Source: Demequina mangrovi
GTDB lineage: Bacteria; Actinomycetota; Actinomycetes; Actinomycetales; Demequinaceae
Direction of reading: 5' to 3'
Assembly: GCF_000759715.1 (NCBI RefSeq)
Contig: NZ_BBLU01000008.1
Location: forward strand, 62,001 to 126,000
DNA length: 64,000 bases
In this document: piece by piece, positions 11,184-29,552 of the stretch
Layout: each line of letters opens with the position of its first letter
Position numbering within the stretch: the stretch's first letter is position 1
Translations under genes and position numbers: made by a program
Notes under the pieces: model-generated
What the model was told of the DNA's origin: nothing
The model's input: the letters and a program-made list of their open reading frames with translations, nothing else
Databases searched by the model: none

Positions 11184-11981
11184 ATGACTTCTGCCACCGA
11201 GTTCGCCGCCGAGGCGGCCGCCACCCTTGCCGCCGCGACGGGCGTCGAGAAGCACGACATCGCCCTGGTCCTGGGCTCCGGATGGGGCGGCGCCGCCGAC
11301 CTCATCGGCGAGGAGACGGCACGCGTCGATGCCGCCGACATCCCCGGCTTCGACGCCCACGTGGTGCCGGGCCACCATCCCGTCTTCCGATCGCTCGTCG
11401 CCCCGACGGGCAAGCGCGTCCTGGTGCTGGGCGCACGCCAGCACTACTACCAGGTCCGCGACGCGGGCAAGGTCGCGCACGCGATCCGCATGGCCGCCGC
11501 AGCGGGCTGCACGCAGCTGGTGCTCACCAACGGCTGCGGGTCCACCCGCCCCGAGGTGGGCCCCGGCTCGGTGGTGCTGCTCGAGGACCACCTCAACCTC
11601 ACCGGCCAGACCCCGCTCGAGGGCGCGACCTTCGTCGACATGAGCCAGGTGTACTCGAAGCGCCTGCGCGACCTCGCGCACACCATCGACCCCGAGCTGC
11701 CGGACGGCATCTACGCGCAGTTCACCGGCCCGCAGTACGAGACGCCCGCCGAGGTGCGCATGGCGGCGATCCTCGGGGCGAACCTCGTGGGCATGTCCAC
11801 CGTGCTCGAGGCGATCGCGGCGCGCGAGGCGGGCCTCGAGGTGCTCGGGCTGTCGCTCGTCACCAACCTCGCGGCGGGCATCGGCGGCGACACGCTCGAC
11901 CACCAGGAGGTGCTCGACGCGGGCGCCGCCGCCGGGCCGCGGATCTCCGCGCTGCTCGCCTCGATCGTCAGGGAGATGTGA
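11184..11981 (+). CDS. punA: Purine nucleoside phosphorylase (trimeric type)
   Basis: A 265-residue enzyme that splits purine (deoxy)ribonucleosides with phosphate to base plus (deoxy)ribose-1-phosphate in the cytoplasm. Family markers are the phosphate-binding LGSGWGG near residue 31, the histidine in VVPGHHPVFRSL, TNGCGSTRPEVGPGS, the substrate glutamate in GPQYETPAEVRM and the base-binding asparagine in LVTNLAAGI. It is followed by the phosphosugar mutase with a one-base stop/start overlap (TGATG), so the sugar phosphate is likely handed to the next enzyme. The opposite strand of this region carries add, deoA, cdd and deoC, completing the salvage set. Confidence 0.93.
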   Translation: MTSATEFAAEAAATLAAATGVEKHDIALVLGSGWGGAADLIGEETARVDAADIPGFDAHVVPGHHPVFRSLVAPTGKRVLVLGARQHYYQVRDAGKVAHAIRMAAAAGCTQLVLTNGCGSTRPEVGPGSVVLLEDHLNLTGQTPLEGATFVDMSQVYSKRLRDLAHTIDPELPDGIYAQFTGPQYETPAEVRMAAILGANLVGMSTVLEAIAAREAGLEVLGLSLVTNLAAGIGGDTLDHQEVLDAGAAAGPRISALLASIVREM

Positions 11982-13687
11982 TGGAGGAGCTGCTCGCCAA
12001 GGCCGAGGCCTGGATCGAGGACGATCCCGACGGCGTCACCCGCGAGGAGCTCGCGGGCGTCCTCGAGGCGGCCGTCGGAGGGTCCGCCGACGCGCTCGCC
12101 GACCTGGAGGACCGTTTCCGCGGCTTCCTCGAGTTCGGCACCGCCGGGCTGCGCGGGCGCATCGGCGCCGGCCCGAACCGCATGAACCGCGCCGTGGTGA
12201 TCCGCGCCGCCGCCGGCCTCGCGCGCTTCATGACCGACGCGCTCGCCGAGCTCGGCGCGCCCGGCCCCGGCCGCGTGGTCATCGGCTACGACGCGCGCCA
12301 CGGCAGCCACGACTTCGCTCTCGACACCGCGGCGGTCATGACCGCGGCCGGTCACGAGGCGCTGCTCCTCCCCCGCACGCTCCCCACCCCGGTGCTCGCC
12401 TTCGCGACGCGCCTGCTCGATGCCGATGCGGGGGTCATGGTGACCGCCTCGCACAACCCGCCCCAGGACAACGGCTACAAGGTCTACCTGGGCGGACGCA
12501 TCGTCACGGACGAGGGTCAGGGCGCGCAGATCGTGCCGCCGTACGACGCGGAGATCGCTGCGCGTATCGCGGCGATCAGGTCCGTCGAGTCGGTGCCGCG
12601 CGCCGCCGACGGCTGGCAGGTGCTCGGCGAGGGCGTGATCGACGACTACGTCGCGCGCGTCGCGACGCTCGGCGGCGACCTCGCGCCGGTCGCGGCGCGG
12701 CGCGCCGCCACGCGCATCGTCCTCACCCCGCTGCACGGCGTGGGCGGGGAGACCATCGAGCGCGTGCTGCGCTCCGCGGGCTTCACCGATCTCCACACGG
12801 TCGTCGAGCAGGCCGAGCCCGACCCCGACTTCCCCACCGTCGACTTCCCCAACCCCGAGGAGAAGGGCGCGATCGACCTCGCTCTCGCGCTCGCGTCCTC
12901 GGTCGAGGCGGACCTGGTGATCGCGAACGACCCGGACGCGGACCGCTGCGCGGTCGCGACGATGGTCGACGGCCGGTGGACGATGCTCCACGGCGACGTC
13001 GTCGGCTCGCTCCTGGGCGAGCGGGTCGCGTCGATGACCCCGGCAGGCTCGCACGTGCTCGCGAACTCGATCGTGTCCTCGCAGCAGCTGGGCGCGATCG
13101 CCTCCGCTCACGGCCTGGGCCATGCCAACACCCTCACGGGCTTCAAGTGGATCGGGCGCACCCCGCGCATGGTCTTCGGCTACGAGGAGGCGCTCGGCTA
13201 CTGCGTCGCGCCCGAACTGGTGCGCGACAAGGACGGCATCTCGGCGGCGCTGCTCATGGCGGACTTCGTCTCGGAGCTCAAGGAGGCCGGGCGCTCGCTG
13301 TCCGACGCGATCGACGACCTCGCGCGCGCCTACGGCGTCTACCTGACGTCCCAGGTCTCGGCGCGCTACGCCGACCTCGCCGAGATCCCGGCCACCATGG
13401 CGCGGCTGATGGCCTCTCCCCCGGCGACGCTCGCGGGCTCGCCCGTGGTGGCGACCGACGACATGTCGCAGGGCTTCCGGGGCCTGCCTGGCACCACCGG
13501 GCTGCACCTCGCGGCGGAGTCCGGCGCGCGGGTCATCGTCCGGCCGTCAGGGACCGAGCCGAAGGTGAAGGCGTACCTGGAGGTCGTCGTGCCCGTGTCC
13601 GGCGACGATGTGGCGGGCGCGAAGGCCGCCGCCGCGGAGACCATGGAGGCGCTGCGCGCCGACGTGACGACGGCGCTCGGCATCTGA
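11981..13687 (+). CDS. pmmB: Phosphosugar mutase (phosphomannomutase/phosphopentomutase family)
   Basis: A 568-residue alpha-D-phosphohexomutase-superfamily enzyme, the long form typical of PGM2/PmmB. The catalytic phosphoserine is Ser157 in TASHNPPQDNGYKVY; the magnesium loop is NDPDADRCAV; the sugar-binding loop GYEEALGYCV and the phosphate-binding RPSGTEPKVKAY near the C-terminus are present. Eukaryotic PGM2 and bacterial relatives accept pentose-1-phosphates, and the coupling to the nucleoside phosphorylase gene suggests the role ribose-1-phosphate to ribose-5-phosphate. No DeoB-type phosphopentomutase is in the cluster, which strengthens this reading. A hexose-phosphate role cannot be excluded. 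Confidence 0.9.
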   Translation: MEELLAKAEAWIEDDPDGVTREELAGVLEAAVGGSADALADLEDRFRGFLEFGTAGLRGRIGAGPNRMNRAVVIRAAAGLARFMTDALAELGAPGPGRVVIGYDARHGSHDFALDTAAVMTAAGHEALLLPRTLPTPVLAFATRLLDADAGVMVTASHNPPQDNGYKVYLGGRIVTDEGQGAQIVPPYDAEIAARIAAIRSVESVPRAADGWQVLGEGVIDDYVARVATLGGDLAPVAARRAATRIVLTPLHGVGGETIERVLRSAGFTDLHTVVEQAEPDPDFPTVDFPNPEEKGAIDLALALASSVEADLVIANDPDADRCAVATMVDGRWTMLHGDVVGSLLGERVASMTPAGSHVLANSIVSSQQLGAIASAHGLGHANTLTGFKWIGRTPRMVFGYEEALGYCVAPELVRDKDGISAALLMADFVSELKEAGRSLSDAIDDLARAYGVYLTSQVSARYADLAEIPATMARLMASPPATLAGSPVVATDDMSQGFRGLPGTTGLHLAAESGARVIVRPSGTEPKVKAYLEVVVPVSGDDVAGAKAAAAETMEALRADVTTALGI

Positions 13688-13721
13688 GCTCCACCGCTCC
13701 CGCCTGCCCCGCCTCCACGCC

Positions 13722-13884
13722 AAGTGGTAGGTGAGGGTCGCTTCTGCGAGGTTCCTCCATCGCAGCGGTAGGCCGTGTTCGGTCGCCGAGCCTGGGCGGT
13801 CCGGCCAGGGTCACCCGGCCTGGACGTCCCTGGCCTACCGCTGCGGAGCAGAGATCGCCAAGATCCGACACTCACCTACCACTT
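13722..13884. repeat. Long inverted-repeat element, copy A
   Basis: Two 53-nt arms, 13722-13774 and 13832-13884, are inverted copies. Their outer 14 bases (AAGTGGTAGGTGAG) and inner 14 (CGCAGCGGTAGGCC) match perfectly, with a diverged middle. The 57-nt centre contains a smaller CCAGG/CCTGG dyad. The element fills the gap between convergent pmmB and deoC. A second copy with the same arm ends and the same 53-nt arm length is at 28282-28496. It has no coding potential that I can support and no transposase. Confidence 0.8.
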
Positions 13885-13909
13885 CGGGGAGAGGCCGGCG
13901 TCGGAAGCC

Positions 13910-14581
13910 TCAGTAGGAGCCGGCGGCCTCGCCGCCGTCGAGCACGGCGCGCGTGCCCGACAGGCCGAGGCGCGTGGCGCCCGCCTCGATCATCGCGACC
14001 GCGTCGTCCCAGGTGCGAATGCCGCCCGAGGCCTTGACCCCGAGGCGTCCGCCCACGGTCTCGGCCATGAGCTTCACCGCGTGGACCGAGGCGCCGCCGG
14101 CGGGGTGGAAGCCGGTCGAGGTCTTGACGAAGTCGGCGCCCGCGGACTCCGCGGCGAGGCATGCGCCCACGATCGCCTCGTCGGTCAGCGCGGCCGACTC
14201 GATGATCACCTTGAGGATCTTGGGGGCCGGGACGGCGGCGCGCACGGCCGCGATGTCGTCCTCGACCGCGGCGAAGTCGCCCGCGAGCGCGGCGGCGACG
14301 TCGATCACCATGTCGACCTCGTCGGCGCCCTGCTCGCAGCTCAGCGCGGCCTCGGCGGCCTTGATCGACGAGTGGTGCTTGCCCGACGGGAAGCCGCACA
14401 CCGTGGCGACGGCGACGCCCTCGGGCGTGGACACCGGCAGCATCGACGGCGAGACGCACACGGAGAAGACGCCCAGCTCGGCGCCCTCCTCGATGAGGGC
14501 CTCGACGTCCGCCGGGGAGGACTCGGGCTTGAGGAGGGTGTGGTCGACGTAGCGGGCCAGCTCGGCACGGGTGAGGGTCAT
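13910..14581 (-). CDS. deoC: Deoxyribose-phosphate aldolase
   Basis: A 223-residue class I aldolase cleaving 2-deoxyribose-5-phosphate to acetaldehyde and glyceraldehyde-3-phosphate. The Schiff-base lysine is in FVKTSTGF, the proton-relay lysine in [10 protein letters not shown], and the opening [13 protein letters not shown] is characteristic. The ATG at 14581 is preceded by AAGGAGA at ideal spacing; the open frame upstream of it is not used. It is last in the leftward nucleoside series, 17 nt after add. Element A lies directly downstream and may end the transcript. Confidence 0.95.
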
Positions 14582-14598
14582 GTCAGTCTCCTTGAATC

Positions 14599-15669
14599 TC
14601 AGAGCTCGAGGCCGTAGCCCTCGATGACGAGCTCGGCGAGGTCCGCCTTCTCGTCGTACGGCAGGAACGCGCCCCACGCGGCGGCGAGGGTCGCCTCGAA
14701 CAGGTCCTCCTTGTCCCAGCCGGTCTCGACCAGCGCGGCGAACTCGGAGGACATGGAGACACCCGAGACCAGGCGGTTGTCGGTGTTGACCGTGACGGCG
14801 AAGCCGAGGTTGCGCAGCTCGTGCATGGGGTGCGCCTCGATCGACGGCGCGGCGGCGGTCTGGACGTTCGAGGTCGGGCACACCTCGAGCGGGATCTGCA
14901 TGTCGAGCGCGTGCTGCGCGATCGGGCCGAGCACCAGCTCCTCGCCGCCGAAGCCCTCGATGTCCTCGTGGATGCGGACGCCGTGACCGATGCGGCGGGC
15001 CGAGCCCAGGCCGAGCGCCTCGCCCACCGAGCCGGCGCCGTCGGCCTCGCCCGCGTGGATGGTGACGGGCATGTGCGCCTCGCGGAGCAGCTGGAAGGCC
15101 TCGCGGTGGTTCGAGGCGGGGAAGCCGAGCTCGGGGCCGGCGATGTCGAACGCGACGCAGCAGCGGCCGCGGTTCGCGAGCGCGAGCTCGGCGATCTCCA
15201 CCGAGCGGTCGAGGTGACGCATCGCGTCGAGGATCGCGGCGGCGCGAATCGCGAAGCCCGCCTCGAGCGCCTCGGAGACGCCCTCCTCGATGCCCTCCTG
15301 GACGGCCTCGACGACCTCCTGGAGCGAGAGGCCGCCGTCGACGTGCTGCTCGGGCGCGTACCGCAGCTCCGCGTAGATGACGCCGTCCGCCGCGAGGTCG
15401 AGGACGGCCTCGCGCGCGACGCGGCGCAGGTTGACGGCGGTCTGCATCACGGCGGTGGTGTGCGCGAAGGCCTCGAGGTAGCGGACCAGGTCGCCCGAGT
15501 TCGCGTTCTCGGCGAAGATGCGCGCGAGCTCGTCGGGCTCGGTCGACGGGAGCTCGTGCCCGATCTCCGCGGCGAGCTCGATGAGGGTGGCGGGGCGGAG
15601 TCCTCCGTCGAGGTGGTCGTGCAGCACGACCTTGGGCAGGGCGAGGATCTCGTCAGAGGTGAGGGTCAT
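14599..15669 (-). CDS. add: Adenosine deaminase
   Basis: A 356-residue zinc enzyme converting (deoxy)adenosine to (deoxy)inosine. Zinc and catalytic residues are visible in order: HDHLDG (His17, His19), HAGEADG, the catalytic histidine region [16 protein letters not shown] and VTVNTDNR carrying the zinc-binding aspartate. Its ATG lies 6 nt behind a TAGCCT box, so it may be transcribed from its own leaderless promoter despite lying only 34 nt after the preceding gene. Inosine produced here feeds the purine nucleoside phosphorylase encoded on the other strand. Confidence 0.94.
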
Positions 15670-15675
15670 GAGGCC

Positions 15676-15681
15676 AGGCTA
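15676..15681 (-). promoter_or_regulatory. Putative -10 box (TAGCCT) for leaderless add
   Basis: Read on the minus strand, TAGCCT is followed by 6 nt and the add ATG (15669). It sits in the 34-nt gap after the papain-like gene. Confidence 0.5.
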
Positions 15682-15703
15682 GTCGCGGGATGCGGGGCGC
15701 GCG

Positions 15704-16678
15704 TCACGAGCGGCGCGGGACCGGCAGCACCACCCACGATGCGCGCGACCAGTTCCCCAGCGCGGGCAGCCGTCCCGAGTCCGGGCGCAGGTCCGCGTCC
15801 GCGAGGGGGAGGATGCGCGCCGATCCCGGCTCGTAGACCAGGAACCCGTCTCCGGTGTCGCCGACGAGCAGCACCACGTGGCGCGGGATGACCGAGTCGA
15901 TCCCGAGCGCGGAGTCCCCCGACGAGTAGAGCGGCACGGGGATGCCGTCCCCGAGCGCGCGGCGTGCGTGCGCGAGGACGGGGGCGAGCGCCTCGGGCGA
16001 GGAGTCGTCGACCAGCGCGCCGCGGAACCGCAGGCCCGCGTACCGGGTGTTGTCGTCCACCTTCCACGGCGGCGTGCCGAGCGAGCGCGGCCACGCGACC
16101 GGGCCCAGCGCCGAGGTGGTGGTCTGTGCGTGGAGAGCGCGCTGGAGCGCGTACCAGCGCTCGTCGAGACCACGGACCGGCCGGTCCTCCGCCATGACGG
16201 CGAGCACCTCCGGCGGGATGTAGTCGGCGAGCGTGCGTCCCGTGACGACCCACAGCGCCACGAAGGGATCGCCCTGCATGAGCATCGCGCTCATGGTCGC
16301 CGCGCCGCACGTGGTCTGGTCGACCTGACGGGCCTCGACATGCACCCATCTGAGGTGGCTCTGCGGGCGCATCACGGGGTTGCCCACCGCGTCCCGCGCC
16401 TCGGGGTCGAGCCCGTCCCAGGCCGCGGCGAGCGCCGCGACCGCCGAGATCGGCGCTCCCGACGCGACCGCGCGGTACAGGACCGGCGCATCGTCCCCCA
16501 TCTGGTCACGCGCGACCCCGAGCGCCTTGGCATCGGCCGCGGAGGCGCGGTCGACGGCGCGCTGGAAGGCGCGCGCGAACAGCGGCTCGCTCGTCGCGGG
16601 CTCCTCGGCGGGGCGCCGCTCCGACACCCCGACGAGGCCCGCGATGCGGGCCACGGCGGAGGTGAGCGTCCAGGGCAT
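15704..16678 (-). CDS. Unrecognised protein, possible papain-like (C39-type) fold
   Basis: A 324-residue protein I cannot name. A cysteine in a C39-like context (QVDQTTCGAATMSAML, Cys124) is followed about 150 residues later by IPRHVVLLVGDTGDGFLVYEPGSARILPL, which resembles the catalytic His then acidic residue of papain-like C39 peptidases. No signal peptide or membrane segment is seen, so it should be cytoplasmic. Its ATG overlaps the deoA stop by one base (TGATG), so it is translationally coupled to thymidine phosphorylase inside the nucleoside operon. A protease, a transglutaminase-like enzyme or a degenerate binding protein are all possible. The start is fixed by the coupling; upstream open frame is a shadow of deoA. 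Confidence 0.6.
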   Translation of the reverse strand: MPWTLTSAVARIAGLVGVSERRPAEEPATSEPLFARAFQRAVDRASAADAKALGVARDQMGDDAPVLYRAVASGAPISAVAALAAAWDGLDPEARDAVGNPVMRPQSHLRWVHVEARQVDQTTCGAATMSAMLMQGDPFVALWVVTGRTLADYIPPEVLAVMAEDRPVRGLDERWYALQRALHAQTTTSALGPVAWPRSLGTPPWKVDDNTRYAGLRFRGALVDDSSPEALAPVLAHARRALGDGIPVPLYSSGDSALGIDSVIPRHVVLLVGDTGDGFLVYEPGSARILPLADADLRPDSGRLPALGNWSRASWVVLPVPRRS

Positions 16679-17991
16679 CAGACGGTCTTCGCTCCCACGG
16701 AGTCGAGGATGATCCGCCGCTCGACCGAGCCGCCGGGCGTGATGTCGAGCGTGCCCGCGCCGTCGCAGGCCTCGGCGAGCGCCGCGACGCCGCGCGGCAT
16801 CCGGTCCTCGGTCTCGGTGTGGAGCGTCATGATGACGTCCCCCTCGCGCACCTCGTCGCCGACCACCTTGTGCAGCAGGACGCCCGCGGAGACCTGCACC
16901 GGGTCCTCCTTGCGCGCGCGCCCCGCGCCCAGGCGCCAGGCCGCGACGCCCACGCCGAGCGCGTCCATCCGCGTGATGACGCCGTCGCGGTCCGCGCGGA
17001 CCTCCTCGACGTGAGGTGCCGCGGGCATGGGCGCGTCGACGTCGCCGCCCTGCGCGGCGATCATGCGGCGCCACGCGTCCATCGCGCGGCCGTCCCTGAG
17101 CGCCTCGGCGGGGTCGACGTCGGTGACCCCGGCGCCGGCGAGCATCTCGCGTGCGAGGGCGACCGTGAGCTCGACGACGTCCGCGGGGCCGCCGCCGGCG
17201 AGCACCTCGAGCGACTCGGTCACCTCGAGGCCGTTGCCGATGCCGCGTCCCAGCGGGGTCGACATGTCGGTGAGGAGCGCGGAGGTCACCACGCCCGCGT
17301 CGGTGCCGAGGTCGACCATCGTCCGCGCGAGCTCGCGCGCCTGGTCGATGTCCTTCATGAACGCGCCCGTGCCGACCTTGACGTCGAGCACCAGCACGCC
17401 CGTGCCCTCGGCGATCTTCTTGGACATGATGGACGAGGCGATGAGCGGGATGGTCTCGACCGTGCCGGTGACGTCACGCAGCGCGTAGAGCTTCTTGTCC
17501 GCCGGGGCGAGACCTGCGCCCGCGGCGCAGATGACGGCGCCCACGTCCTCGAGCTGACGCAGCATCTCCGCGTTGGAGACGTCGGCGCGCCAGCCGGGGA
17601 TCGACTCGAGCTTGTCGAGCGTGCCGCCCGTGTGGCCCAGGCCGCGGCCCGAGAGCTGCGGGACGGCGACGCCGCACGCGGCGACCAGCGGCGCGAGCGG
17701 CAGCGTGATCTTGTCCCCGACCCCGCCGGTGGAGTGCTTGTCGGCGGTCGGGCGAGAGAGCGACGAGAAGTCGAGACGCTCGCCGGTCGCGATCATCGCC
17801 GCGGTCCACCGCGCGATCTCGGCGCGCGACATCCCGCGCTGGAGGATCGCCATCGCGAGCGAGCTCATCTGCTCGTCGGCGACGACGCCGCGCGTGTAGG
17901 CGTCGACCACCCAGTCGATCTGGTCGTCGGACAGGGTGCCGCCGTCACGCTTGGTGCGGATGACGTCGACGGCGTCGTGGCGCTCGGCCAT
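16678..17991 (-). CDS. deoA: Thymidine phosphorylase
   Basis: A 437-residue enzyme converting thymidine or deoxyuridine plus phosphate to base and deoxyribose-1-phosphate. The family signature is clear in RPTADKHSTGGVGDKITLPLAPLVAACGVAVPQLSGRGLGHTGGTLDKLE at about residues 78-127, with the glycosyltransferase-3 helical N-terminus (DEQMSSLAMAILQRGMSRAE) before it. It directly follows cdd with no gap, and its stop overlaps the start of the papain-like gene. Together with cdd and deoC it routes deoxycytidine and thymidine carbon to glycolysis. Confidence 0.95.
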   Translation of the reverse strand: MAERHDAVDVIRTKRDGGTLSDDQIDWVVDAYTRGVVADEQMSSLAMAILQRGMSRAEIARWTAAMIATGERLDFSSLSRPTADKHSTGGVGDKITLPLAPLVAACGVAVPQLSGRGLGHTGGTLDKLESIPGWRADVSNAEMLRQLEDVGAVICAAGAGLAPADKKLYALRDVTGTVETIPLIASSIMSKKIAEGTGVLVLDVKVGTGAFMKDIDQARELARTMVDLGTDAGVVTSALLTDMSTPLGRGIGNGLEVTESLEVLAGGGPADVVELTVALAREMLAGAGVTDVDPAEALRDGRAMDAWRRMIAAQGGDVDAPMPAAPHVEEVRADRDGVITRMDALGVGVAAWRLGAGRARKEDPVQVSAGVLLHKVVGDEVREGDVIMTLHTETEDRMPRGVAALAEACDGAGTLDITPGGSVERRIILDSVGAKTV

Positions 17992-18387
17992 TCAGCCCTC
18001 CTCGAGGTGCTGGGGCCCGAAGGCCCACGGAAGAAGATCGTCCAGGGTGAGGGTGCCCGCGGGGCCATCGATGAGCAGCCCCGGTCCCCCGAACTCGTAC
18101 AGCAGCTGGCGGCAGCGGCCGCACGGCTGCAGCGGCGCACCCGCCGCGTCGACGCACGCGAAGGCGACGAGCCGCTTCCCCAGCGCGTCGGTGTGGAGCT
18201 TCGACACGAGCGCGCACTCGGCGCACAGCGTGAGCCCGTAGCTCGCGTTCTCGACGTTCGCGCCGGTCACCACCTCACCGGTGTCGGTGATCGCGGCGGC
18301 ACCCACGCGGTACTTCGAGTAGGGCACGTACGCACGCTCGCTCGCCCGCCGCGCCCGCGCGCGGAGCATCTCCCAGTCGACGTCCAT
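17992..18387 (-). CDS. cdd: Cytidine deaminase
   Basis: A 131-residue tetrameric-type enzyme deaminating (deoxy)cytidine to (deoxy)uridine. Zinc ligands Cys55 and the pair in PCGRC (Cys89, Cys92) with catalytic Glu57 in LCAEC are all present, as is the substrate-binding NVENASYG. The ATG at 18387 is preceded by GTAGGAG, which overlaps the end of the upstream permease gene. It abuts deoA without a gap, so uridine made here can be phosphorolysed next. Confidence 0.95.
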   Translation of the reverse strand: MDVDWEMLRARARRASERAYVPYSKYRVGAAAITDTGEVVTGANVENASYGLTLCAECALVSKLHTDALGKRLVAFACVDAAGAPLQPCGRCRQLLYEFGGPGLLIDGPAGTLTLDDLLPWAFGPQHLEEG

Positions 18388-18391
18388 GCTC

Positions 18392-19705
18392 CTACTTCTT
18401 GTAAGGGATGCCCTCGGCGGCCGGCGGGCGCACGTGGCCCACCAGCCCGGCGACGGCGAAGATCGTGGCGAGGTACGGCAGCATCGCGAGGAACTGCGAC
18501 GGGATCGACGAGCCGACGATGCCGAACTGCTCGCGCAGCGCGTCCGCGAAGCCGAACAGCAGTCCCGCCGCGAGCGCGCCCTTGGGGCTCCAGCGTCCGA
18601 GGATCATCGCGGCGAGCGCGATGAAGCCCTTGCCTCCGGTCATCTCCTTGCCGAAGGCGAGACCGTTGGCGACCGTGAAGAACGCGCCGCCCAGGCCCGC
18701 GATCGCACCGCCGAGGATGGTGTTGCGCACGCGGGTGCGGTTGACCTTGATGCCCACGGTGTCCGCGGCGCGCGGGTGCTCGCCGACCGCGCGGACCCGC
18801 AGGCCCCAGCGCGACTTGAACAGCATGATGTTCATGACGATCACGATGATGTACATGAGGTACACCACCATGTTCGAGTTGAACAGCACGGGTCCGATGA
18901 TCGGGATCTGGTGCAGCAGCGGGATCGGCAGGCGCGGGAGACCGATGGCCTGGTTGAGGTCCGGGTTCTCCTTGAGGAGCGTGCCGAACAGGAAGTTGGT
19001 CACGCCGACCACGAGCACGTTGAGCACCACGCCGACCACGATCTGGTTGACCCAGTACTTCACCGCGAACAGCGCCAGCGCGGCGCCCACGAGCGCACCC
19101 GCGATCGGGGCCGCGATGAGACCCATGTAGGCGCCGAGCGCGCGGGAGCCCGAGGCGCTGGCGACGCCGCCCGCGACCACGGCCGCGAGGAAGGCGCCGG
19201 CGAGCAGCTGGCCCTCGATCGCGATGTTGATGATGCCGGAGCGCTCGCAGAGCGTGCCGGCGAGCGCGCCGAAGACGAGCGGCACCGCGAGGAACACCGA
19301 GCCGATGAGCAGGCCGGTGATCTGCATCGACGTGCTGCCCTTGCCGGCGCCGACCCACGTGAGCATCGCGAAGATCACCGCGAGCGCGAAAGCGGAGTAC
19401 AGCCACAGCGGCACGGGACGATGCGCCCACGCGAACCAGAACGACAGCCCGGCGAGCCCGAGCGCCACGAGCGACAGGATGATCGCGGTCGCCTGCGACG
19501 GGACCGCGAAGTCGGGGATGTCGACGAAGTCGGTGGGACGGGCGATCGCGAACGTCGTCTCGAGCCCGCCCTGGGTGCCGAAGCCGAAGACGATCAGCGA
19601 CAGCAGGCCGATCGCGCCGAGCGCGATCGGGGCCACGAGCCGGCGGTGCCGGACGATCCCGGCGGGCGCCTCGGCGGCGGGGGCGTCCATCGTCGCGGTC
19701 GTCAT
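18392..19705 (-). CDS. Nucleoside ABC transporter permease 2 (BmpB/NupQ type)
   Basis: A 437-residue branched-chain-amino-acid-type (BPD_transp_2) permease. About ten hydrophobic segments are visible, starting with APIALGAIGLLSLIVFGF. The core CERSGIINIAIEGQLLAGAF is the typical helix pair of nucleoside uptake permeases, and RAVGEHPRAADTVGI is the cytoplasmic coupling loop. An extra N-terminal block of about 120 residues with three or four helices precedes the core. The start overlaps the stop of permease 1 (ATGA), and cdd follows 4 nt later. Import of nucleosides is inferred from the operon. Confidence 0.87.
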   Translation of the reverse strand: MTTATMDAPAAEAPAGIVRHRRLVAPIALGAIGLLSLIVFGFGTQGGLETTFAIARPTDFVDIPDFAVPSQATAIILSLVALGLAGLSFWFAWAHRPVPLWLYSAFALAVIFAMLTWVGAGKGSTSMQITGLLIGSVFLAVPLVFGALAGTLCERSGIINIAIEGQLLAGAFLAAVVAGGVASASGSRALGAYMGLIAAPIAGALVGAALALFAVKYWVNQIVVGVVLNVLVVGVTNFLFGTLLKENPDLNQAIGLPRLPIPLLHQIPIIGPVLFNSNMVVYLMYIIVIVMNIMLFKSRWGLRVRAVGEHPRAADTVGIKVNRTRVRNTILGGAIAGLGGAFFTVANGLAFGKEMTGGKGFIALAAMILGRWSPKGALAAGLLFGFADALREQFGIVGSSIPSQFLAMLPYLATIFAVAGLVGHVRPPAAEGIPYKK

Positions 19706-20907
19706 GCCGCCACCTCCTTCTCGTGGGTCGGGGCAGGCAGGCGGAACAGGAACCTCACGAGCGGCGGCGCCGCGATGAAGAGCACGATGAGGGACTGGAT
19801 CACCAGCACGATGTCGACCGGCAGCTGCGCCTGGACCTGCAGCGCCGGACCGGCGGCGCGGAGGCCTCCGAAGAGGATCGCCGCGAGCACGATGCCGAGC
19901 GGACGCGAGCGTCCGAGCAGCGCGACCGTGATGGCGTCGAATCCGAACGAGGCGGCGATGCCGGAGGTCAGCGACTTCTCCGTGCCGAGCACCTGCGCCG
20001 AGCCCGCGAGACCGGCGAGCGCACCCGCGATCACCATGACGAGCACGATCGCGCGCTTGACGTTCATGCCCGCGGTGCGCGCCGCCGAGGGGTTCGCGCC
20101 CACGGCGCGGAACTGGAAGCCGAGCGTCGAGCGCTCCATGAGCCACCACGCTCCCCACGCGCACAGCAGCGCGAGCACGAAGCCGAGATGGAGCGGGAAC
20201 TGGTCGCCGAGGACCAGCGGGTACTCCGCCGTGTCGGCGACCTGCGGCGACTGCGGGTTGTCGGAGCCGGGGCGCTGGAACGCCTCGAGCGTGAGCAGCC
20301 AGGACAGCAGGTTGAGCGCGATGTAGTTGAGCATGATCGTGACGATCACCTCGTGCGCGCCCGTGGTGGCCTTGAGGATGCCGGGGATGAAGCCCCAGAT
20401 CGCGCCGCCGAGCGCGCAGCCGAGCACCGCCAGGAGCAGGTGCAGACCGACCGGCAGGTCCCAGGCGAAGCCGACGTAGCCGCCGAGCGTCGCGCCCATG
20501 ATGATCTGGCCCTGCGCACCGATGTTGAACAGGCCCGCACGGAAGCCGATGCCGAGCCCGAGACCCGCGAACAGCAGCGGGGTCGCGACCGTGAGCGTCT
20601 GCATGAAGGGTCTGATCTGCGCCGCGAACGTGCCGCCGTTGGGGTTGTAGATCGCGCCCTGGAACATCGCGATGTACGCGCTCGAGACCGCGTGCCACAT
20701 GGCCGAGAACGTGTCGCTCGGGCGCGAGAAGAAGTACGTGGCGGCCTCGCGCACGTCCTCGGACGCGGCGATGATGAGGAGCGATCCGAGGATCATCGAC
20801 GCGATGATCGCGAAGACCACGACCGCGGTCTGGCTCTCCGCGATCTCCCGGAGCAGTCCGCGCCCGTCGCGCTTCTCGTCCGTCGCGGTGGCGGTCTGGT
20901 CGCTCAC
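19702..20907 (-). CDS. Nucleoside ABC transporter permease 1 (BmpC/NupP type)
   Basis: A 401-residue BPD_transp_2-family permease. After a charged N-terminus, helices begin at AVVVFAIIASMILGSLLIIAAS. The conserved core GLGLGIGFRAGLFNIGAQGQIIMGATLGGYVGF and the coupling loop RAVGANPSAARTAGM match the first permease of bacterial nucleoside ABC importers. It overlaps both neighbours by 4 nt (ATGA), ATPase before and permease 2 after, so all three should be made in fixed ratio. Confidence 0.88.
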   Translation of the reverse strand: MSDQTATATDEKRDGRGLLREIAESQTAVVVFAIIASMILGSLLIIAASEDVREAATYFFSRPSDTFSAMWHAVSSAYIAMFQGAIYNPNGGTFAAQIRPFMQTLTVATPLLFAGLGLGIGFRAGLFNIGAQGQIIMGATLGGYVGFAWDLPVGLHLLLAVLGCALGGAIWGFIPGILKATTGAHEVIVTIMLNYIALNLLSWLLTLEAFQRPGSDNPQSPQVADTAEYPLVLGDQFPLHLGFVLALLCAWGAWWLMERSTLGFQFRAVGANPSAARTAGMNVKRAIVLVMVIAGALAGLAGSAQVLGTEKSLTSGIAASFGFDAITVALLGRSRPLGIVLAAILFGGLRAAGPALQVQAQLPVDIVLVIQSLIVLFIAAPPLVRFLFRLPAPTHEKEVAA

Positions 20908-22421
20908 GCGGCCTCCTCCTCGTCGTGGGCGCCGGCCATCATGAGGCCGAGCGTGTCGCGATCGGTGTCCGGCGGGACGATGCCGACGATGCGGCCGTGG
21001 TACATCACGGCGATGCGGTCGGCGAGCGCCACGACCTCGTCGAGCTCGGCGCTCACGATGATGACGGCCGCGCCGCCGTCGCGCTCCGCGACGATCCGCT
21101 TGTGCACGAACTCGATCGAGCCGACGTCGAGGCCGCGCGTCGGGTTCGACGCGATGAGCAGCTTGAGCGGGCGCGACAGCTCGCGGGCGAGCACCACCTT
21201 CTGCTGGTTGCCGCCCGACAGCGAGCCGGTGGTCTGCTCGATGGAGGTCGCGCGGACGTCGAACTGCTCGACGTGCTTGCGCGCCTCCTCGGCGATCACC
21301 TTGGGCTGGAGCACGCCGCCGCGCGAGTAGGGCTTGCGGTCGTGGATGTCGAGGATGAGGTTGTTCGCGATGGTCATCGGCGCGACGATGCCGTCCTCGG
21401 TGCGGTCCTCGGGGACGAAGCCGAGCCCGGACATGAGGATGTCCTTGATCGCCTTGCCGGTGATGACCTCGCCGTCGAGCGTCGCGCTGCCGGCGTCCGA
21501 GGGGACGATGCCGAGCAGCGCCTCCGTCAGCTCGGTCTGGCCGTTGCCCTGGACGCCCGCGATCGCGAGGATCTCACCCGCCTTGACGTCGAAGCTGACG
21601 CCGTCGAGCTGCACGATCCCGGCCTCGTCGACGACCGTGAGGCCGTCGACGGAGAGCATCGTCTCGCCGGGCTTCGCCTCGTCCTTGTCGACGCGCATGG
21701 TGACCGCGCGCCCGACCATGAGCGAGGCGAGCTCCTCCTGCGACGCGGTGGGCTCGGCGGTGCCGACCACCTTGCCGCGGCGGATGACGGTGATGGTGTC
21801 CGCGACGGCCTTGACCTCACGGAGCTTGTGGGTGATGAGCACCACGGCCGTGCCGGCGTCGCGGAGGTCGCGGACGATGCCGAGCAGCTCGTCGGTCTCC
21901 TGCGGCGTCAGGACCGCGGTGGGCTCGTCGAGGATGAGCACCGAGGCGTCGCGCGAGAGCGCCTTGATGATCTCGACGCGCTGCTGCGCGCCCACCGGAA
22001 GGTCCTCGATGACCGCGTCCGGGTCGACGTTGAAGTTGAAGCGCTCGGAGATCTCCCGCACCTTGGCGCGCGCCGCCTCGAGGTCGAGGAGCTTGGCCGG
22101 GCCGGTGACGTCCTCGTGGCCGAGCATGACGTTCTCCGCGACGGTGAACGGGTGCACGAGCATGAAGTGCTGGTGCACCATGCCGATGCCCGCGGCCATC
22201 GCGTCGCCGGGACCGGCGAAGACGACCGGCTCGTCGTTGAGCAGGACCTCGCCCTCGTCCGCGTCGTACAGACCGAAGAGCACGTTCATCAGCGTCGACT
22301 TGCCGGCGCCGTTCTCGCCGAGGAGCGCATGCACCGTCCCGGACTCGACCAGCAGGTCGATCCTGTCGTTCGCGGTGAAGTCGCCGAAGCGCTTGGTGAT
22401 GCCGCGGAGCTCGAGTTTCAC
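20904..22421 (-). CDS. Nucleoside ABC transporter ATPase (two nucleotide-binding domains)
   Basis: A 505-residue protein with two fused ABC ATPase domains, as in sugar and nucleoside importers (RbsA/YufO style). Domain 1 has Walker A GENGAGKSTLMN, Q-loop MVHQHFMLV, signature LPVGAQQRVEI and Walker B VLILDEPTAVL. Domain 2 has a degenerate Walker A (IAGVQGNGQTELTEALLG) and signature LSGGNQQKVVLAREL, typical for the second half of this family. It lies downstream of the binding-protein gene but separated by a strong hairpin, and overlaps permease 1 by 4 nt. Confidence 0.9.
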   Translation of the reverse strand: MKLELRGITKRFGDFTANDRIDLLVESGTVHALLGENGAGKSTLMNVLFGLYDADEGEVLLNDEPVVFAGPGDAMAAGIGMVHQHFMLVHPFTVAENVMLGHEDVTGPAKLLDLEAARAKVREISERFNFNVDPDAVIEDLPVGAQQRVEIIKALSRDASVLILDEPTAVLTPQETDELLGIVRDLRDAGTAVVLITHKLREVKAVADTITVIRRGKVVGTAEPTASQEELASLMVGRAVTMRVDKDEAKPGETMLSVDGLTVVDEAGIVQLDGVSFDVKAGEILAIAGVQGNGQTELTEALLGIVPSDAGSATLDGEVITGKAIKDILMSGLGFVPEDRTEDGIVAPMTIANNLILDIHDRKPYSRGGVLQPKVIAEEARKHVEQFDVRATSIEQTTGSLSGGNQQKVVLARELSRPLKLLIASNPTRGLDVGSIEFVHKRIVAERDGGAAVIIVSAELDEVVALADRIAVMYHGRIVGIVPPDTDRDTLGLMMAGAHDEEEAA

Positions 22422-22477
22422 CGGTGTCCTTCCACCATGATTCAGGGCCTTCCCTGAGACTACTAGCGGAGACGCGA

Positions 22478-22514
22478 AGGGGCGCGCCGCAGAACGAGCC
22501 TGCGACGCGCCCCT
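22478..22514 (-). terminator. Strong hairpin between the BMP lipoprotein gene and its ABC ATPase gene
   Basis: Arms 22478-22492 and 22500-22514 form a 15-bp stem with a single mismatch and a 7-nt loop; the stem is almost all G-C. It begins 19 nt beyond the lipoprotein stop codon. No U-tract follows, so it may act as a partial terminator or 3' stabiliser giving more binding protein than ATPase. Confidence 0.65.
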
Positions 22515-22533
22515 GGTGCGTGACCGTTGCTGC

Positions 22534-23598
22534 TTAGGAGACGGCCACCGAGATCGAGCCGTCGATGATGCCGGCCTTGATGGTCTCGAGCTCCTCGACC
22601 ACCGAGGCGTCCACCGCGTCCGCGACGTCGGCCAGGCCGACGCCCTCGTTCTCGAGCGTGCCGAGGTAGTTCTCGTTCGAGAAGGCGCCGTCGACGTCCT
22701 CCGCGATGGCCTCCTCGACCGCGACGTCGATCTTCTTGAGGACCGAGGTCAGGATGATGTCCGCGTACTCCTCGTACTTGGCCGCGAAGTCGGAGTCGAC
22801 GCCGATGACCCAGGTGTCGCCGGCCTCGGAGGCGGCCTGGAGCGAGCCCTCGCCCACGGGTCCCGCGACCGGGAGGATGATGTCGACGCCCTGGTCGATC
22901 ATGCCCTGGGTGAGCGACTTGCCCGCGGGGATGTCGTCGAAGGACTCGGTGAAGGAGCCGGTCGAGCCGTCCCAGCCGATGACCTCGACCGAGCCGCCGG
23001 TCTCCTCGTTGAAGTAGTTGACGCCCGCGAGGTAACCGTCCATGAAGGCGGTGACCGACGGGATGTTCATGCCGCCGTAGGTGCCGACCTTGCCGGTCTG
23101 CGTGGCGGAGGCGGCGACGTAGCCCGCGAGGAACGAGGGCTGCTCGGCCGCGAAGGTGAGGCCCTTGACGTTGTCGATCGCCGGGTCGTACGCGAAGTCG
23201 ATGATCGAGAAGTGCGTGTCGGGGTTCGCCTCAGCCGCGGCCGCGGTGGCGTCGCCGAGCAGGAAGCCTGCGGAGACGATGTGGTCGCAGCCGTCCGCGA
23301 CGAGCGCGTCGAGGTTCGGGCCGTACTCGTTGCCGTCGGCCGACTGAGCGGTGTTGATCTCGATGCCGAGGTCGGCCTCGGCGGCGAGGAGACCCTCGTA
23401 GCCGGTCTGGTTGAACGACTTGTCGTCGAAGCCGCCGGCGTCGGAGACCATGCAGGCCTTGAAGTCGACGGTCTCCGCGGGCATGGCGTCCATCGTGGAG
23501 TCGGCCGAGGACTCGGTCTCCTCCGGGGCCGACGAGCACGCGGCAAGGGCCAGCGCCGACACGGCGGCGACCGCACCCACACGGATGATGTTCTTCAT
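22534..23598 (-). CDS. BMP-family nucleoside-binding lipoprotein
   Basis: A 354-residue exported substrate-binding protein. The lipoprotein signal MKNIIRVGAVAAVSALALAAC ends at Cys21. The BMP/PnrA fold is indicated by ACMVSDAGGFDDKSFNQTGYEGLL, DHIVSAGFLLGDATAAAA and GVDSDFAAKYEEYADIILTSVLKKID. BMP proteins of this type bind purine and pyrimidine nucleosides and hand them to the permeases encoded downstream. The ATG at 23598 has the site AGAGGGA upstream; the frame is open further but the signal peptide fixes the start. The acidic linker after the cysteine (EETESSADSTMDAMPAETVD) is typical for a tether. Confidence 0.92.
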   Translation of the reverse strand: MKNIIRVGAVAAVSALALAACSSAPEETESSADSTMDAMPAETVDFKACMVSDAGGFDDKSFNQTGYEGLLAAEADLGIEINTAQSADGNEYGPNLDALVADGCDHIVSAGFLLGDATAAAAEANPDTHFSIIDFAYDPAIDNVKGLTFAAEQPSFLAGYVAASATQTGKVGTYGGMNIPSVTAFMDGYLAGVNYFNEETGGSVEVIGWDGSTGSFTESFDDIPAGKSLTQGMIDQGVDIILPVAGPVGEGSLQAASEAGDTWVIGVDSDFAAKYEEYADIILTSVLKKIDVAVEEAIAEDVDGAFSNENYLGTLENEGVGLADVADAVDASVVEELETIKAGIIDGSISVAVS

Positions 23599-23694
23599 CA
23601 GGTGATTCCCTCTGTTCTGATTCCCGCCCGGCTGCCACCGGGAGGTGTCGTACGGGTCATCGTACGGCCGCAATGTTACGGAACGTGAAGACTT

Positions 23695-23723
23695 CGTTGC
23701 GCCGCGGCTACGATTGCGCAACG
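23695..23723 (-). terminator. Inverted repeat directly downstream of manC
   Basis: Arms CGTTGCGC (23695-23702) and GCGCAACG (23716-23723) with a 13-nt loop start one base after the manC stop codon. Flanking GTGAA/TTCAC (23685-23689, 23724-23728) could extend the stem. It probably ends the manC transcript; it also lies upstream of the BMP gene, so an operator role is possible. Confidence 0.45.
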
Positions 23724-23724
23724 T

Positions 23725-25717: not shown

Positions 25718-27483
25718 CCCACCACGAGTACGACGTCGTCATCGTCGGCGCCGGCGGCGCCGGCATGCGCGCAGCCCTCGAGAGCTCGCAGCGCGCCCGC
25801 ACCGCGGTGCTCACCAAGCTCTACCCCACCCGCTCGCACACGGGCGCGGCGCAGGGCGGCATGGCCGCGGCGCTCGCCAACGTCGAGGACGACAACGCCG
25901 AGTGGCACGTCTTCGACACCATCAAGGGCGGCGACTACCTGGTCGACCAGGACGCCGCCGAGATCCTGTGCAACGAGGCCATCGACGCGGTCCTCGACCT
26001 CGAGAAGATGGGGCTGCCGTTCAACCGCACGCCCGAGGGCAAGGTGGACCAGCGCCGCTTCGGCGGCCACACCCGCAACCACGGCGAGGCCGCGGTGCGT
26101 CGCGCCTGCTACTCCGCCGACCGTACGGGCCACATGATCCTGCAGACGCTGTACCAGCAGTGCATCAAGCAGGAGGTCGAGTTCTTCAACGAGTACTACG
26201 TGCTCGACCTCATCCTCGACTCCGACCCGCAGGCCGCCGCCGAGGGCGAGGACGTGTCCGTGGCCGGCGTGGTCGCCCTCGAGCTGTCGACGGGCGAGAT
26301 CCACACCTTCAGCGCGAAGTCGGTGGTCTTCGCGACCGGCGGCGCGGGCAAGGTCTTCAAGACCACGTCGAACGCGCACACGCTGACCGGCGACGGCATG
26401 GGCATCGCGCTCAACGCGGGTCTGCCGCTCGAGGACATGGAGTTCTTCCAGTTCCACCCGACGGGCCTCGCGGGCCTCGGCATCCTCCTGTCGGAGGCGG
26501 CACGCGGCGAGGGCGGAATCCTGCGCAACTCCGAGGGCGAGCGCTTCATGGAGCGCTACGCCCCCACCATCAAGGATCTCGCGCCGCGCGACATGGTCGC
26601 CCGCGCGATGGCCAACGAGGTGCGCGAGGGCCGCGGCGCCGGTCCCCACAAGGACTACGTGCTGCTCGACCTCACCCACCTCGAGCCGGCCCACATCGAT
26701 GAGAAGCTCCCGGACATCACCGAGTTCGCGCGCACCTACCTGGGCGTCGAGCCGTACACCGAGCCTGTGCCCGTCTACCCGACCGCGCACTACGCGATGG
26801 GCGGCATCCCCACGACGGTCCAGGGCGAGGTGCTGCGCAACAACCTCGACACCGTCAAGGGCCTCTACGCCGCCGGCGAGTGCGCATGCGTGTCGGTGCA
26901 CGGCGCCAACCGCCTGGGCACCAACTCGCTGCTCGACATCAACGTCTTCGGACGCCGCGCGGGCATCGCCGCCGCCGAGCACGCCGTCGCCACCGCGGAG
27001 GCCGCAGCCTTCCCTGACGATGCGGCGGCGCGGGTCGAGGGCATCGTCACCCGCTTGCTGGGCACGGTGGGCGGCTCGGGCACGGAGCGCGTCGCGGAGG
27101 TCCGCAAGGTGCTCCAGGAGACGATGGACCGCAACGTCCAGGTGTTCCGCGACGCCTCGTCCCTCGAGGAGGCGACCCGGGTGATCGCCGAGCTCAAGGA
27201 GCGCTACCAGGACGTCGCGATCCACGACCGCGGCAAGCGCTTCAACACCGACCTCCTCGAGGCGATCGAGCTGGGCTTCCTGCTCGAGATCGCGGAGGTG
27301 GTGGTCGCGGGCGCGCTGGCGCGTCAGGAGTCGCGCGGCGGGCACTACCGCGAGGACTTCCCCACGCGTGATGATGAGAAGTTCATGCACCACACGATGG
27401 CGTACGCGACCGGCGACGGCGTCCGGCTGGACACCAAGCCCGTGATCGTGACGAGGTACCAGCCGATGGAGAGGAAGTACTGA
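25714..27483 (+). CDS. sdhA: Succinate dehydrogenase flavoprotein subunit
   Basis: A 589-residue FAD protein oxidising succinate to fumarate. The Rossmann motif [15 protein letters not shown] is at residues 8-22; the covalent-FAD histidine is His42 in [13 protein letters not shown]. The substrate-binding block [23 protein letters not shown] and the catalytic arginine region ([30 protein letters not shown]) are present. It overlaps sdhD and sdhB by 4 and 1 nt. Full length for the family, with no visible defects. Confidence 0.96.
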
Positions 27484-28247
27484 TGACGGCGACCGCCGAG
27501 TCCCCCGCTGTCGGCGAGGTCAAGGCCATGACGGTGACGCTGCGCATCCTGCGCTCGAAGCCCGAGGGCACGGACGAGCACAAGCCCGGCGAGCAGTACT
27601 GGCAGGAGTTCCAGGTCGAGGCGCACGCGACCGACCGTGTGCTCGACGCGCTCCACAAGATCAAGTGGGAGCAGGACGGCTCCCTCGCGTTCCGACGCTC
27701 GTGCGCGCACGGCGTGTGCGGCTCCGACGCGATGCGCATCAACGCGCGCAACCGCCTCGCGTGCAAGACGCTGCTCAAGGACCTCAACCCGGCCAAGCCG
27801 ATCATCGTCGAGCCCATCAAGGGCCTGCCGGTCGAGAAGGACCTCATCGTGGACATGGAGCCGTTCTTCGCCTCCTACCGCGAGATCATGCCGTTCCTCA
27901 TGACCACCGGGAACGCGCCGGCGCGCGAGCGCCTGCAGTCCTCCGAGCAGCGCGACCGCTTCGACGACACGACCAAGTGCATCCTCTGCGCGGCGTGCAC
28001 CACCAGCTGCCCGGTGTTCTGGACCGACGGCCAGTACTTCGGCCCGCAGGCGATCGTGGGCGCGCACCGGTTCATCTTCGACTCGCGCGACGAGGGCCAG
28101 TGGGACCGCCTCGAGATCCTCAACGACAAGGCCGGCGTCTGGAAGTGCCGCACGGCCTTCAACTGCACCGAGGCCTGCCCGCGCGGCATCGAGGTGACCA
28201 AGGCGATCTCCGAGGTCAAGCACGCGCTCACCACGGGCGAGTTCTAG
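27483..28247 (+). CDS. sdhB: Succinate dehydrogenase iron-sulfur subunit
   Basis: A 254-residue electron-transfer subunit. The [2Fe-2S] ligands lie in CAHGVCGSDAMRINARNRLAC; the [4Fe-4S] and [3Fe-4S] ligands lie in CILCAACTTSCP and FNCTEACPRGIEVTKAI. It passes electrons from the flavin to the quinone site. It closes the sdhCDAB operon, and element B begins 35 bp after its stop codon. Confidence 0.96.
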   Translation: MTATAESPAVGEVKAMTVTLRILRSKPEGTDEHKPGEQYWQEFQVEAHATDRVLDALHKIKWEQDGSLAFRRSCAHGVCGSDAMRINARNRLACKTLLKDLNPAKPIIVEPIKGLPVEKDLIVDMEPFFASYREIMPFLMTTGNAPARERLQSSEQRDRFDDTTKCILCAACTTSCPVFWTDGQYFGPQAIVGAHRFIFDSRDEGQWDRLEILNDKAGVWKCRTAFNCTEACPRGIEVTKAISEVKHALTTGEF

Positions 28248-28281: not shown

Positions 28282-28496
28282 AAGTGGTAGGAGAGGGTCG
28301 CTTTCGGGAGATCTCCGCGCCGCAGCGGTAGCCCACGGTCGCTCCGTCGACCGGATGGCCGCATGGGCCGGCAGCCGGAGGCGCCCGAGCGACGGCGGGG
28401 CTGCGGCACCGCGGCGGAGCCCGGCCTCCGCACCACCGACACTCACCTACCGCTGCAAAGCGAGAACCTGCGAGAAGCGACACTCACCTACCACTT
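28282..28496. repeat. Long inverted-repeat element, copy B
   Basis: Left arm 28282-28334 and right arm 28444-28496 share the outer ends AAGTGGTAGG-GAG and the inner GCAGCGGTAG with copy A at 13722-13884. The right arm region carries the 15-mer CGACACTCACCTACC twice in the same orientation (28437-28451 and 28478-28492). The centre is longer (109 nt) and unrelated to that of copy A. Like copy A, it fills a gap between convergent genes (sdhB and the YihY gene). Confidence 0.8.
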
Positions 28497-28529: not shown

Positions 28530-29552
28530 TCAGTCCTCTGGCGCCTCGGGGTTCCTCACCATCGCCCTGGCCGTGGTGACCGGCGTGCCGTGGCGGCGGC
28601 GCCCCTCGACCACCACGGTGGGCGGCTCGAGGCTGTCGAGGTGGATCTGCCCCTCGTGATGCTCGCGCTCATGCGCGCCCAGCCACGCGGCGCAGATGAG
28701 GATGATCCGGTTGACGTAGTCGACGAAGACCATGAGCGTGATGATCGCGGCGAACGGCGCGAGCACAGGGCTGTCCACGGCTCCCTGCACCACGAACGAC
28801 ACGCCGAGCCGCAGGATCCCGATCGCCAGGGCCGCGAGCAGGATCACCCACAGCACGCGCCACGACATCCGCGCGCCGCCGAGCAGCATGAGCACGAGAG
28901 CGACGTAGAGCATGTCCGCGATCACGCCTGCCCCGTAGCCGATGAGGCGGATCTGCCAGGCCGGCACCGTGATGCCGACCGCGTCGGCGATCGCCCGCGC
29001 GGCGCCCGAGGCGACCACCTGGATGGTCACCCCGACCACCGCGATGAGCGCGAGAGCGACGAGCCCGCCGATGTCGCGGACCTTGCCCAGCACCGGGGAC
29101 GCGACCTCGTTGCCGAGCATCGTCCGGGTCGAGGTGCGCAATCCGCGGATGAAGCGCGTCGCCGAGTTGATGAGGATGAGGAACGAGACCACGCCGATGA
29201 TCCCCGCGACGGACGTCGCCGAACCCGATCCGAGGTCGTCAGGCTGGATGATGCCGTTGGTGTCATCGGTCTTGATGAGACCGGGCACCGCCTCCGCGAG
29301 GTAGTCGACGAGCTCCCCGCGGAGCTCGTCGTTGCCGGCGAGGAACACGGTCGCCAGCGTGGTCGCCACGACCAGTCCCGCCGCCACGGACGCCAAGGTG
29401 AGGTACGCGATCCCCGAGGCGAGCACCGCGCCGTTCTGGACGCTGAAGCGCTTGATGCCGCGACCCCAGGAGGAGTTGTCCCACCACTCCTTGAGCCTCT
29501 TGCCACGGGTCACGGCCTCGGTGGCCTTGGCCTTGACGTCCTCCGTGGTCAT
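28530..29552 (-). CDS. YihY/BrkB-family membrane protein
   Basis: A 340-residue polytopic membrane protein with about six helices. The start region WGRGIKRFSVQNGAVLASGIAYLTLASVAAGLVVATTLATVFL matches the first helix block of YihY/BrkB proteins, and later helices FLILINSATRFIRGLR and AIITLMVFVDYVNRIILICAAWLGAH fit its conserved core. The biochemical function of the family is not established. Both termini are polar and predicted cytoplasmic. It is 16 nt downstream of trpS on the same strand and probably co-transcribed. Confidence 0.85.
   Translation of the reverse strand: MTTEDVKAKATEAVTRGKRLKEWWDNSSWGRGIKRFSVQNGAVLASGIAYLTLASVAAGLVVATTLATVFLAGNDELRGELVDYLAEAVPGLIKTDDTNGIIQPDDLGSGSATSVAGIIGVVSFLILINSATRFIRGLRTSTRTMLGNEVASPVLGKVRDIGGLVALALIAVVGVTIQVVASGAARAIADAVGITVPAWQIRLIGYGAGVIADMLYVALVLMLLGGARMSWRVLWVILLAALAIGILRLGVSFVVQGAVDSPVLAPFAAIITLMVFVDYVNRIILICAAWLGAHEREHHEGQIHLDSLEPPTVVVEGRRRHGTPVTTARAMVRNPEAPED

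Follow-up and report, generated by a model that had tools for sequence, protein, structure and literature searches.

Dispersed inverted tandem-box repeats in Demequina and their association with DUF559-type nuclease genes

In this study, we analysed a window of 64,000 nt from the genome of Demequina mangrovi (G000) and found two palindromic intergenic elements, W1 and W2, which probably belong, as non-autonomous members, to a dispersed family of repeats with a chromosomal DUF559 nuclease gene as its partner. The link between the dispersed boxes that build these elements and genes for AbiEi/Vsr-type nucleases is well supported. The features of the window are as follows.

13722..13740, plus strand: W1 left arm, outer box (AAGTGGTAGGTGAGGGTCG)
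13765..13781, plus strand: W1 left arm, inner box, 41 nt past the outer box, with a degenerate second half
13782..13824, no strand: W1 centre, whose length and sequence are not conserved
13825..13841, minus strand: W1 right arm, inner box
13866..13884, minus strand: W1 right arm, outer box
28282..28300, plus strand: W2 left arm, outer box
28325..28341, plus strand: W2 left arm, inner box
28342..28436, no strand: W2 centre, unlike the W1 centre in length and sequence
28437..28453, minus strand: W2 right arm, inner box (GCGGTAGGTGAGTGTCG)
28478..28496, minus strand: W2 right arm, outer box
11978..13687, plus strand: phosphoglucomutase/phosphomannomutase-family gene (pmmB in the original prediction), left of W1
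13910..14581, minus strand: deoC, right of W1
27483..28247, plus strand: sdhB, left of W2
28530..29552, minus strand: gene with a BrkB (PF03631) match (YihY in the original prediction), right of W2

Both palindromes of the original prediction were recovered by a repeat finder, with arms at 13708-13774/13832-13898 for W1 and 28280-28331/28447-28498 for W2, each pair being 75% complementary. The five copies of the 15-mer GGTAGGWGAGNGTCG counted there were confirmed as exact. Allowing up to 2 mismatches gave 6 copies in the window against 1.38 ± 1.23 in shuffled sequence, where 1 of 100 shuffles reached 6, and the 2.97-Mb genome contains 14 copies against 0 for the reversed control. Both gaps are convergent, as had been described, and lie between the pmmB-like gene and deoC and between sdhB and the BrkB/YihY-type gene. 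A point missed there is that the outer and inner ends are one box repeated in tandem at a 41-nt step.

Each arm consists of two tandem GYGGTAGGTGAGNGTCG boxes with this 41-nt step, and each element is built from two arms facing in inverted order around a centre that is free in length and sequence. The best partner offset was 41 in 16 of the 17 box rows of G000. In one of these 16, at 28453, the partner differs at 8 positions and does not count as a real box, and the single row with offset 42 is a box with 4 mismatches. The strong arms (15/15) align over 62 columns, gap-free. A left arm with three tandem boxes, again at 41-nt steps, was observed at G000:C15:22436-22535 (L070).

We compared the arms within and across the elements of G000, and found that the outer boxes are 85% matched and the spacers 44% within an element, against 88% and 56% across different elements. 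The likeness within elements does not exceed that between elements in G000, G020 and G011 alike (the identities in G020 and G011 were computed with anchoring). What the arms share therefore appears to be the box, as would fit a site bound by a protein, and not a stem kept by pairing. RNA structure inside a single arm was also considered and rejected, as RNAalifold on 15 arms gave 4 pairs at -2.14 kcal/mol. Likewise, the arms do not represent decayed coding sequence, an origin that the original prediction had named as counting against it, because 41 cannot be divided by three and the elements are located between predicted genes.

The distance between the arms is also patterned. A compact span of 135-136 bp was found in 11/32 measured pairs, and 4/7 additional pairs, taken from match coordinates, are 134-135 bp long. 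Among the 22 longer spans (<300 bp), phasing with a period of about 10.3 bp was seen (p 0.0014 for all and 0.0032 for unique spans), with the period scanned from 9 to 12 and the pattern noticed post hoc, after the spans were known. The 41-nt step itself is about four helical turns.

To describe the family, we used an arm model (R1) built from G000 arms. G000 has 15 strong arms in nine elements, six of them inverted pairs, of which the window contains two, and three single arms; because of how R1 was built, matches in G000 are partly by construction. Among the weaker arms of G000 is an inverted pair at G000:C19, its arms separated by about 1.16 kb. In one relative 66 arm matches were found, and copy numbers vary widely between species. 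The case of only two copies, which would have counted against the original prediction, is excluded.

We examined the gene context of 48 elements in four genomes (21 in G020, 10 in G000, 10 in G011 and 7 in G022), which comprise 32 inverted pairs and 16 single arms. The genes came from a codon-score gene caller with a 60-nt tolerance and not from annotation, and the places outside G000 came from the arm-match list. All of the elements (48/48) are located in gaps between predicted genes, of which 30 are convergent, 17 co-directional and 1 divergent. The remaining gaps of the same stretches are 22 convergent, 150 co-directional and 47 divergent, giving a convergent excess (Fisher p 8e-14) and a divergent deficit (6e-4).

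The probable partner gene does not lie in the window but at G000:C19:88551-89567, where valS and clpX are its neighbours. It encodes 339 aa and is enclosed by the C19 arms. Its product matches REase_MTES_1575 (E 2e-4) and DUF559 (E 0.05), both below the curated cut-offs, and 20 of 21 relatives match REase_MTES_1575 and 16 match DUF559 at E 0.01 or better. Between 2 and 7 matches to the protein were present in every one of 44 Demequina genomes. We analysed the flanks of the best match per genome in 30 of these 44 genomes, and found clpX within the stretch of about 4 kb around the gene in 29/30 and also valS in 25/30.

Flanking inverted arms score above 50 shuffles in 24/30 of these valS-clpX loci. 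The six loci without a flanking pair above the shuffles are L146, L151, L153, L154, L155 and L167. Compared with a control set of 162 genes (99th percentile 21.4, largest 23), the flanking arms exceed the 99th percentile in 23/30 loci. Genes that the gene caller placed within the control stretches and that are themselves of DUF559 type pass the same threshold in 11/17 cases. DUF559 paralogues have flanking inverted arms above shuffles in 19/20 and above the control-gene threshold in 11/20. The sizes of the flank windows vary between these analyses, so the counts differ.

The flanking arms vary in sequence by species and by gene copy, and a two-box layout recurs in many of them. The likeness of the arms tracks that of the proteins across 22 loci (Spearman 0.28, Mantel p 0.001); the similarity between a locus's own left and right arms is biased in this analysis, because arms were picked by inverted-repeat score. 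In G000, the arms flanking the gene score 37 and 32 bits against 49-66 bits for dispersed arms, a difference due in part to the model having been built from dispersed arms. The C19 gene is no obvious recent source.

The orientation of the DUF559 gene relative to valS and clpX is split, being co-directional with valS in 15 and inverted in 14 of the 29 loci with a neighbour (L143-L172). Frequent inversion of the nuclease gene was rejected, since the gene tree needs 3 changes only and the starred branches alone force 1. We also considered R1 pairs about 1 kb apart (G020:C21, G022:C8, G011:C20, G022:C2 and G011:C21) as longer transposons, and rejected them because no DUF559 match was found in the stretches retrieved for these five.

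In G025, G035, G027 and, weakly, G001, boxes resembling those beside the species' own DUF559 gene recur elsewhere in the genome. The flank box of G025, searched with up to 3 mismatches, has 27 matches in G025, 3 beside the gene and 24 away from it, with 0 for the reversed control. The same box has 17 matches in G006, 16 in G031 and 13 in G026, with 0 control matches in each, and at most 3 in each of the other 40 genomes, some of which have one control match. The G035 box gave 11 matches in 400 kb of G035 (control 0), and 8 of these 11 make up two complete elements, in which the boxes start at 0, 41, 56 and 97. In a 400-kb sample of G027, its own box gave 4 matches (control 0) and the similar G064 box 5. 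The own box of G001 is barely above the control (3 vs 1 in a 400-kb sample).

The second DUF559 gene of G000, on contig C27, has a wholly different box, GGGACNNTCACC, with 11 matches in G000, two beside the C27 gene and nine elsewhere (control 0). Its dispersed elements have box starts at 0, 41, 83-84 and 124-125 in 5/6 of those inspected; the sixth, L258, is a minus-strand match whose other side is not covered, and was left out of the spacing count. Taken together, the GYGGTAGGTGAGNGTCG and GGGACNNTCACC data indicate that two unrelated boxes in one genome have a common step length. G006, G031 and G026 were each seen to have two box families, one of the GGTAG type and one of the GGGGAACTCAGCGACGG type, which are perhaps the leftover of a changed gene specificity.

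Beyond Demequina, relatives of the protein were found at E 1e-15 in 43 of 119 sampled genomes of the order, 34 of them from outside the genus. Of 21 such outside loci, 12 have flanks scoring above the 99th percentile found for mismatched flanks (26), and 15 of the 20 that were scored against the control genes lie above the corresponding threshold (21.4). Several of the flanking repeats are near-perfect palindromes. The sole genome sampled for dispersed copies outside Demequina, G112, has one clear copy in 400 kb. Flanking is therefore widespread, whereas dispersal is perhaps not.

We used a structure model of the D. gelatinilytica protein, which is 87% like the G000 protein (16 sequences, mean pLDDT 84.8). 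In the model, the best fold matches of the C-terminal part are the homing endonuclease I-Bth0305I (Z 12.9), NGO0050 (12.8) and Vsr (11.3), and those of the N-terminal 190 residues are AbiEi (Z 11.6 over 182 residues) and Rv2827c (8.8). One PADLOC AbiEi profile is matched by 18/21 proteins. The modelled protein thus appears to be an AbiEi-like DNA-binding part joined to a nuclease of the Vsr/homing-endonuclease type. The family alignment shows no variation at residues E, D, H and D, which presumably form an EDxHD motif. EDxHD is given as a homing endonuclease family in the abstract of PMC6083498, and PMC7319586 describes how AbiEi and Rv2827c each recognise, in their own promoters, inverted repeats of 23 bp that occur in pairs.

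We infer that the DUF559 protein may bind, cut and copy the boxes. In the proposed mechanism, its AbiEi-like part would bind them, and a pair of boxes with a distance of 41 bp, or about four turns of the helix, would make up one arm. Two inverted arms on the same helix face would be brought together, and the nuclease would cut or nick there. Repair or recombination would copy the compact four-box unit (~135 bp) into other gaps, and convergent gene ends would tolerate the inserted unit. Binding of the boxes by the protein, which is predicted, is likely; a putative role in spreading them is plausible. It is quite possible, if somewhat short of probable, that the family represents a new class of selfish repeats of Actinomycetales, in which a gene bounded by inverted boxes of its own encodes a DUF559 protein that combines an AbiEi-like DNA reader with a nuclease of the Vsr/EDxHD type. 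Such a system would spread helically phased four-box miniatures by cut and repair, with the box changing as gene copies diverge, and would be a counterpart of REPIN-RAYT pairs of independent origin, with an unrelated enzyme and no transposase.

We compared the gaps of W1 and W2 with their orthologues in 14 relatives, and found turnover, with an element present or absent in the same gap. A counterpart of W1 is located in the same pmmB-deoC gap in 2/14 relatives (G011 and G020), which suggests that spread is slow or past. Three relatives have a short gap here, of 27-28 nt (G026 and G025) or 54 nt (G023), and in G006 and G022 the gap contains a palindrome of another kind; in G001 and G028, deoC was not found next to the pmmB-like gene. 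Between sdhB and yihY, G025 and G026 have a gap of 21 nt. In G001 this gap contains one element of the box type proper to that species, in G022 it contains a plain GC-rich hairpin, and in G011 and G020 it is more than 1 kb long, with arm matches near the far side. We found no clear target duplication beside the six paired G000 elements, whose flanks were judged by eye, and saw neither an excision product nor polymorphism within a species. Three observations speak against recent spread: the gene-flanking arms of G000 are less like the dispersed ones, W1 has counterparts in two other species, and target duplication was not seen. The REP- or MITE-like character suggested by the original prediction is supported by the many intergenic copies, the inverted pairs, the conserved ends, the free centre and the presence or absence of elements per gap.

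Several other sequences were observed in these gaps. The palindrome in the pmmB-deoC gap of G006 (L266) and G022 (L277) is of the type GGAGGTGCTCAGTGCCC...GGGCACTGAGCACCTC, and this type also flanks a DUF559 paralogue of G022 (L180) about 1.3 kb from pmmB. In the sdhB-yihY gap, G006, G017, G023 and G031 (L283, L289, L281 and L282) have inverted sequences with ends like CAACCGGCGTACG. The pmmB-deoC gap of G020 (L272) has a GGAAGT-type run before the left outer box, likely a slippage expansion.

The same observations bear on the possibility that the boxes are immobile, fixed sites of a domesticated DUF559 nuclease with a host job in repair, chromosome handling or conflict with foreign DNA. The gene is kept at one locus in the genomes examined, W1 counterparts occupy the same gap in two relatives, the arm geometry is rigid and the gene-side arms are less like the dispersed arms, all of which would suit such a system. 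However, the same gaps measure 21-54 nt or have other inverted sequences in other species, copy number varies widely among species, and the arm sequence changes with the gene copy. We consider a domesticated site system unlikely, with a minor but real chance of being right.

The elements could also act as bidirectional terminators or as RNA-stabilising hairpins at convergent gene ends, and a bidirectional transcription stop was among the original suggestions. In favour of this reading, W1 as RNA has a fold z of -8.1 on the plus and -9.5 on the minus strand and W2 of -5.9, far beyond shuffles, and 30/48 elements are in convergent gaps. Given this strong folding, an effect on transcripts, as a side effect on their ends, is possible. 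Intrinsic terminators consist of a GC-rich hairpin and a T run behind it; among five terminator-like sites found in 13000-29500, none is within W1 or W2. A role as bidirectional terminator alone is not favoured, because 17/48 elements are between co-directional genes, 16/48 are single arms, the complementarity between the arms of an element does not exceed that with arms of other elements, and the linkage to a nuclease gene would be left unexplained. We regard this explanation as improbable.

Another explanation, which we consider very improbable, is that the boxes are operators of an AbiEi-like autoregulator and its regulon. It would draw on the 23-bp inverted-repeat pairs bound by AbiEi and Rv2827c at their own promoters, as PMC7319586 describes, and on the arms upstream of the DUF559 gene; yet arms are found downstream of this gene too, and only 1/48 dispersed elements is in a divergent (promoter) gap.

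The inverted ends, free centre and dispersal are also those of MITEs of some classical transposase, but this origin is hardly credible, as such ends were found to enclose a gene for a nuclease and to be specific to the gene, and Y1 transposases (PF01797) were not found in 44 Demequina genomes. The same Y1_Tnp search was positive in 5/14 control genomes. The linked RAYT, which by the original prediction would support mobility, was thus not found, and the gene that does have such arms on both sides is a DUF559-type nuclease gene elsewhere in the genome. That prediction's statement that no named family is known with these ends agrees with Rfam, which gave 0 window matches at gathering scores, and with the literature searched, where none came up. 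The titles and abstract openings in this literature mention no DUF559/MTES_1575 genes with flanking or dispersed repeats.

The association of the repeat family with DUF559 nuclease genes matters because Pfam assigns no function to DUF559/REase_MTES_1575 genes beyond a nuclease fold, and the gene-specific flanking and dispersed boxes give these genes a testable substrate. If the protein spreads the boxes, REP-like repeats would arise in bacteria by another, unrelated route as well, one that depends on a homing-endonuclease fold. Otherwise, it is still necessary to explain why the genome has tens of box sites for a nuclease. The gene copies with differing boxes also form a natural set for reading the DNA specificity of AbiEi-type proteins.

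Among known systems, the modelled C-terminal part is closest in fold (Z 12.9) to I-Bth0305I, a free-standing Vsr-like enzyme that we take to belong to the EDxHD homing endonucleases. The Demequina gene differs from it in having inverted tandem boxes on both sides and dispersed partner elements, and its product in having an N-terminal part that is predicted to be AbiEi-like. This N-terminal fold is shared with AbiEi of S. agalactiae and Rv2827c, and known relatives bind paired inverted repeats; in contrast to AbiEi-type antitoxins, the Demequina domain is joined to a nuclease domain. The antitoxin-like fold recalls the AbiE type IV toxin-antitoxin system; the G000 gene is located between valS and clpX. 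The elements are short and intergenic with inverted ends like MITEs, but have no parent transposase in the PF01797 search and no clear target duplication beside six pairs.

REPINs are defined as inverted REP doublets tied to RAYTs in PMC3116915, and RAYT genes are described as flanked by REPs or other inverted repeats, with repeat-specific sets in one species, in PMC3733652. By these descriptions, both systems have dispersed extragenic inverted doublets (PMC3116915, PMC3733652), a chromosomal enzyme gene flanked by such repeats, here the DUF559 gene, and separate genes in one genome with separate repeat families. The Demequina enzyme differs in being an AbiEi/Vsr-type DUF559 protein and not a Y1 HUH transposase. 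Each Demequina arm is a tandem box pair with a 41-nt step, arms are present in tens per genome, and in the family studied the arms of one element are not specially complementary to each other. Because the logic is the same but the Y1 RAYT was found in none of 44 genomes, we class the Demequina repeats as working like REPIN-RAYT pairs and not as members of that system.
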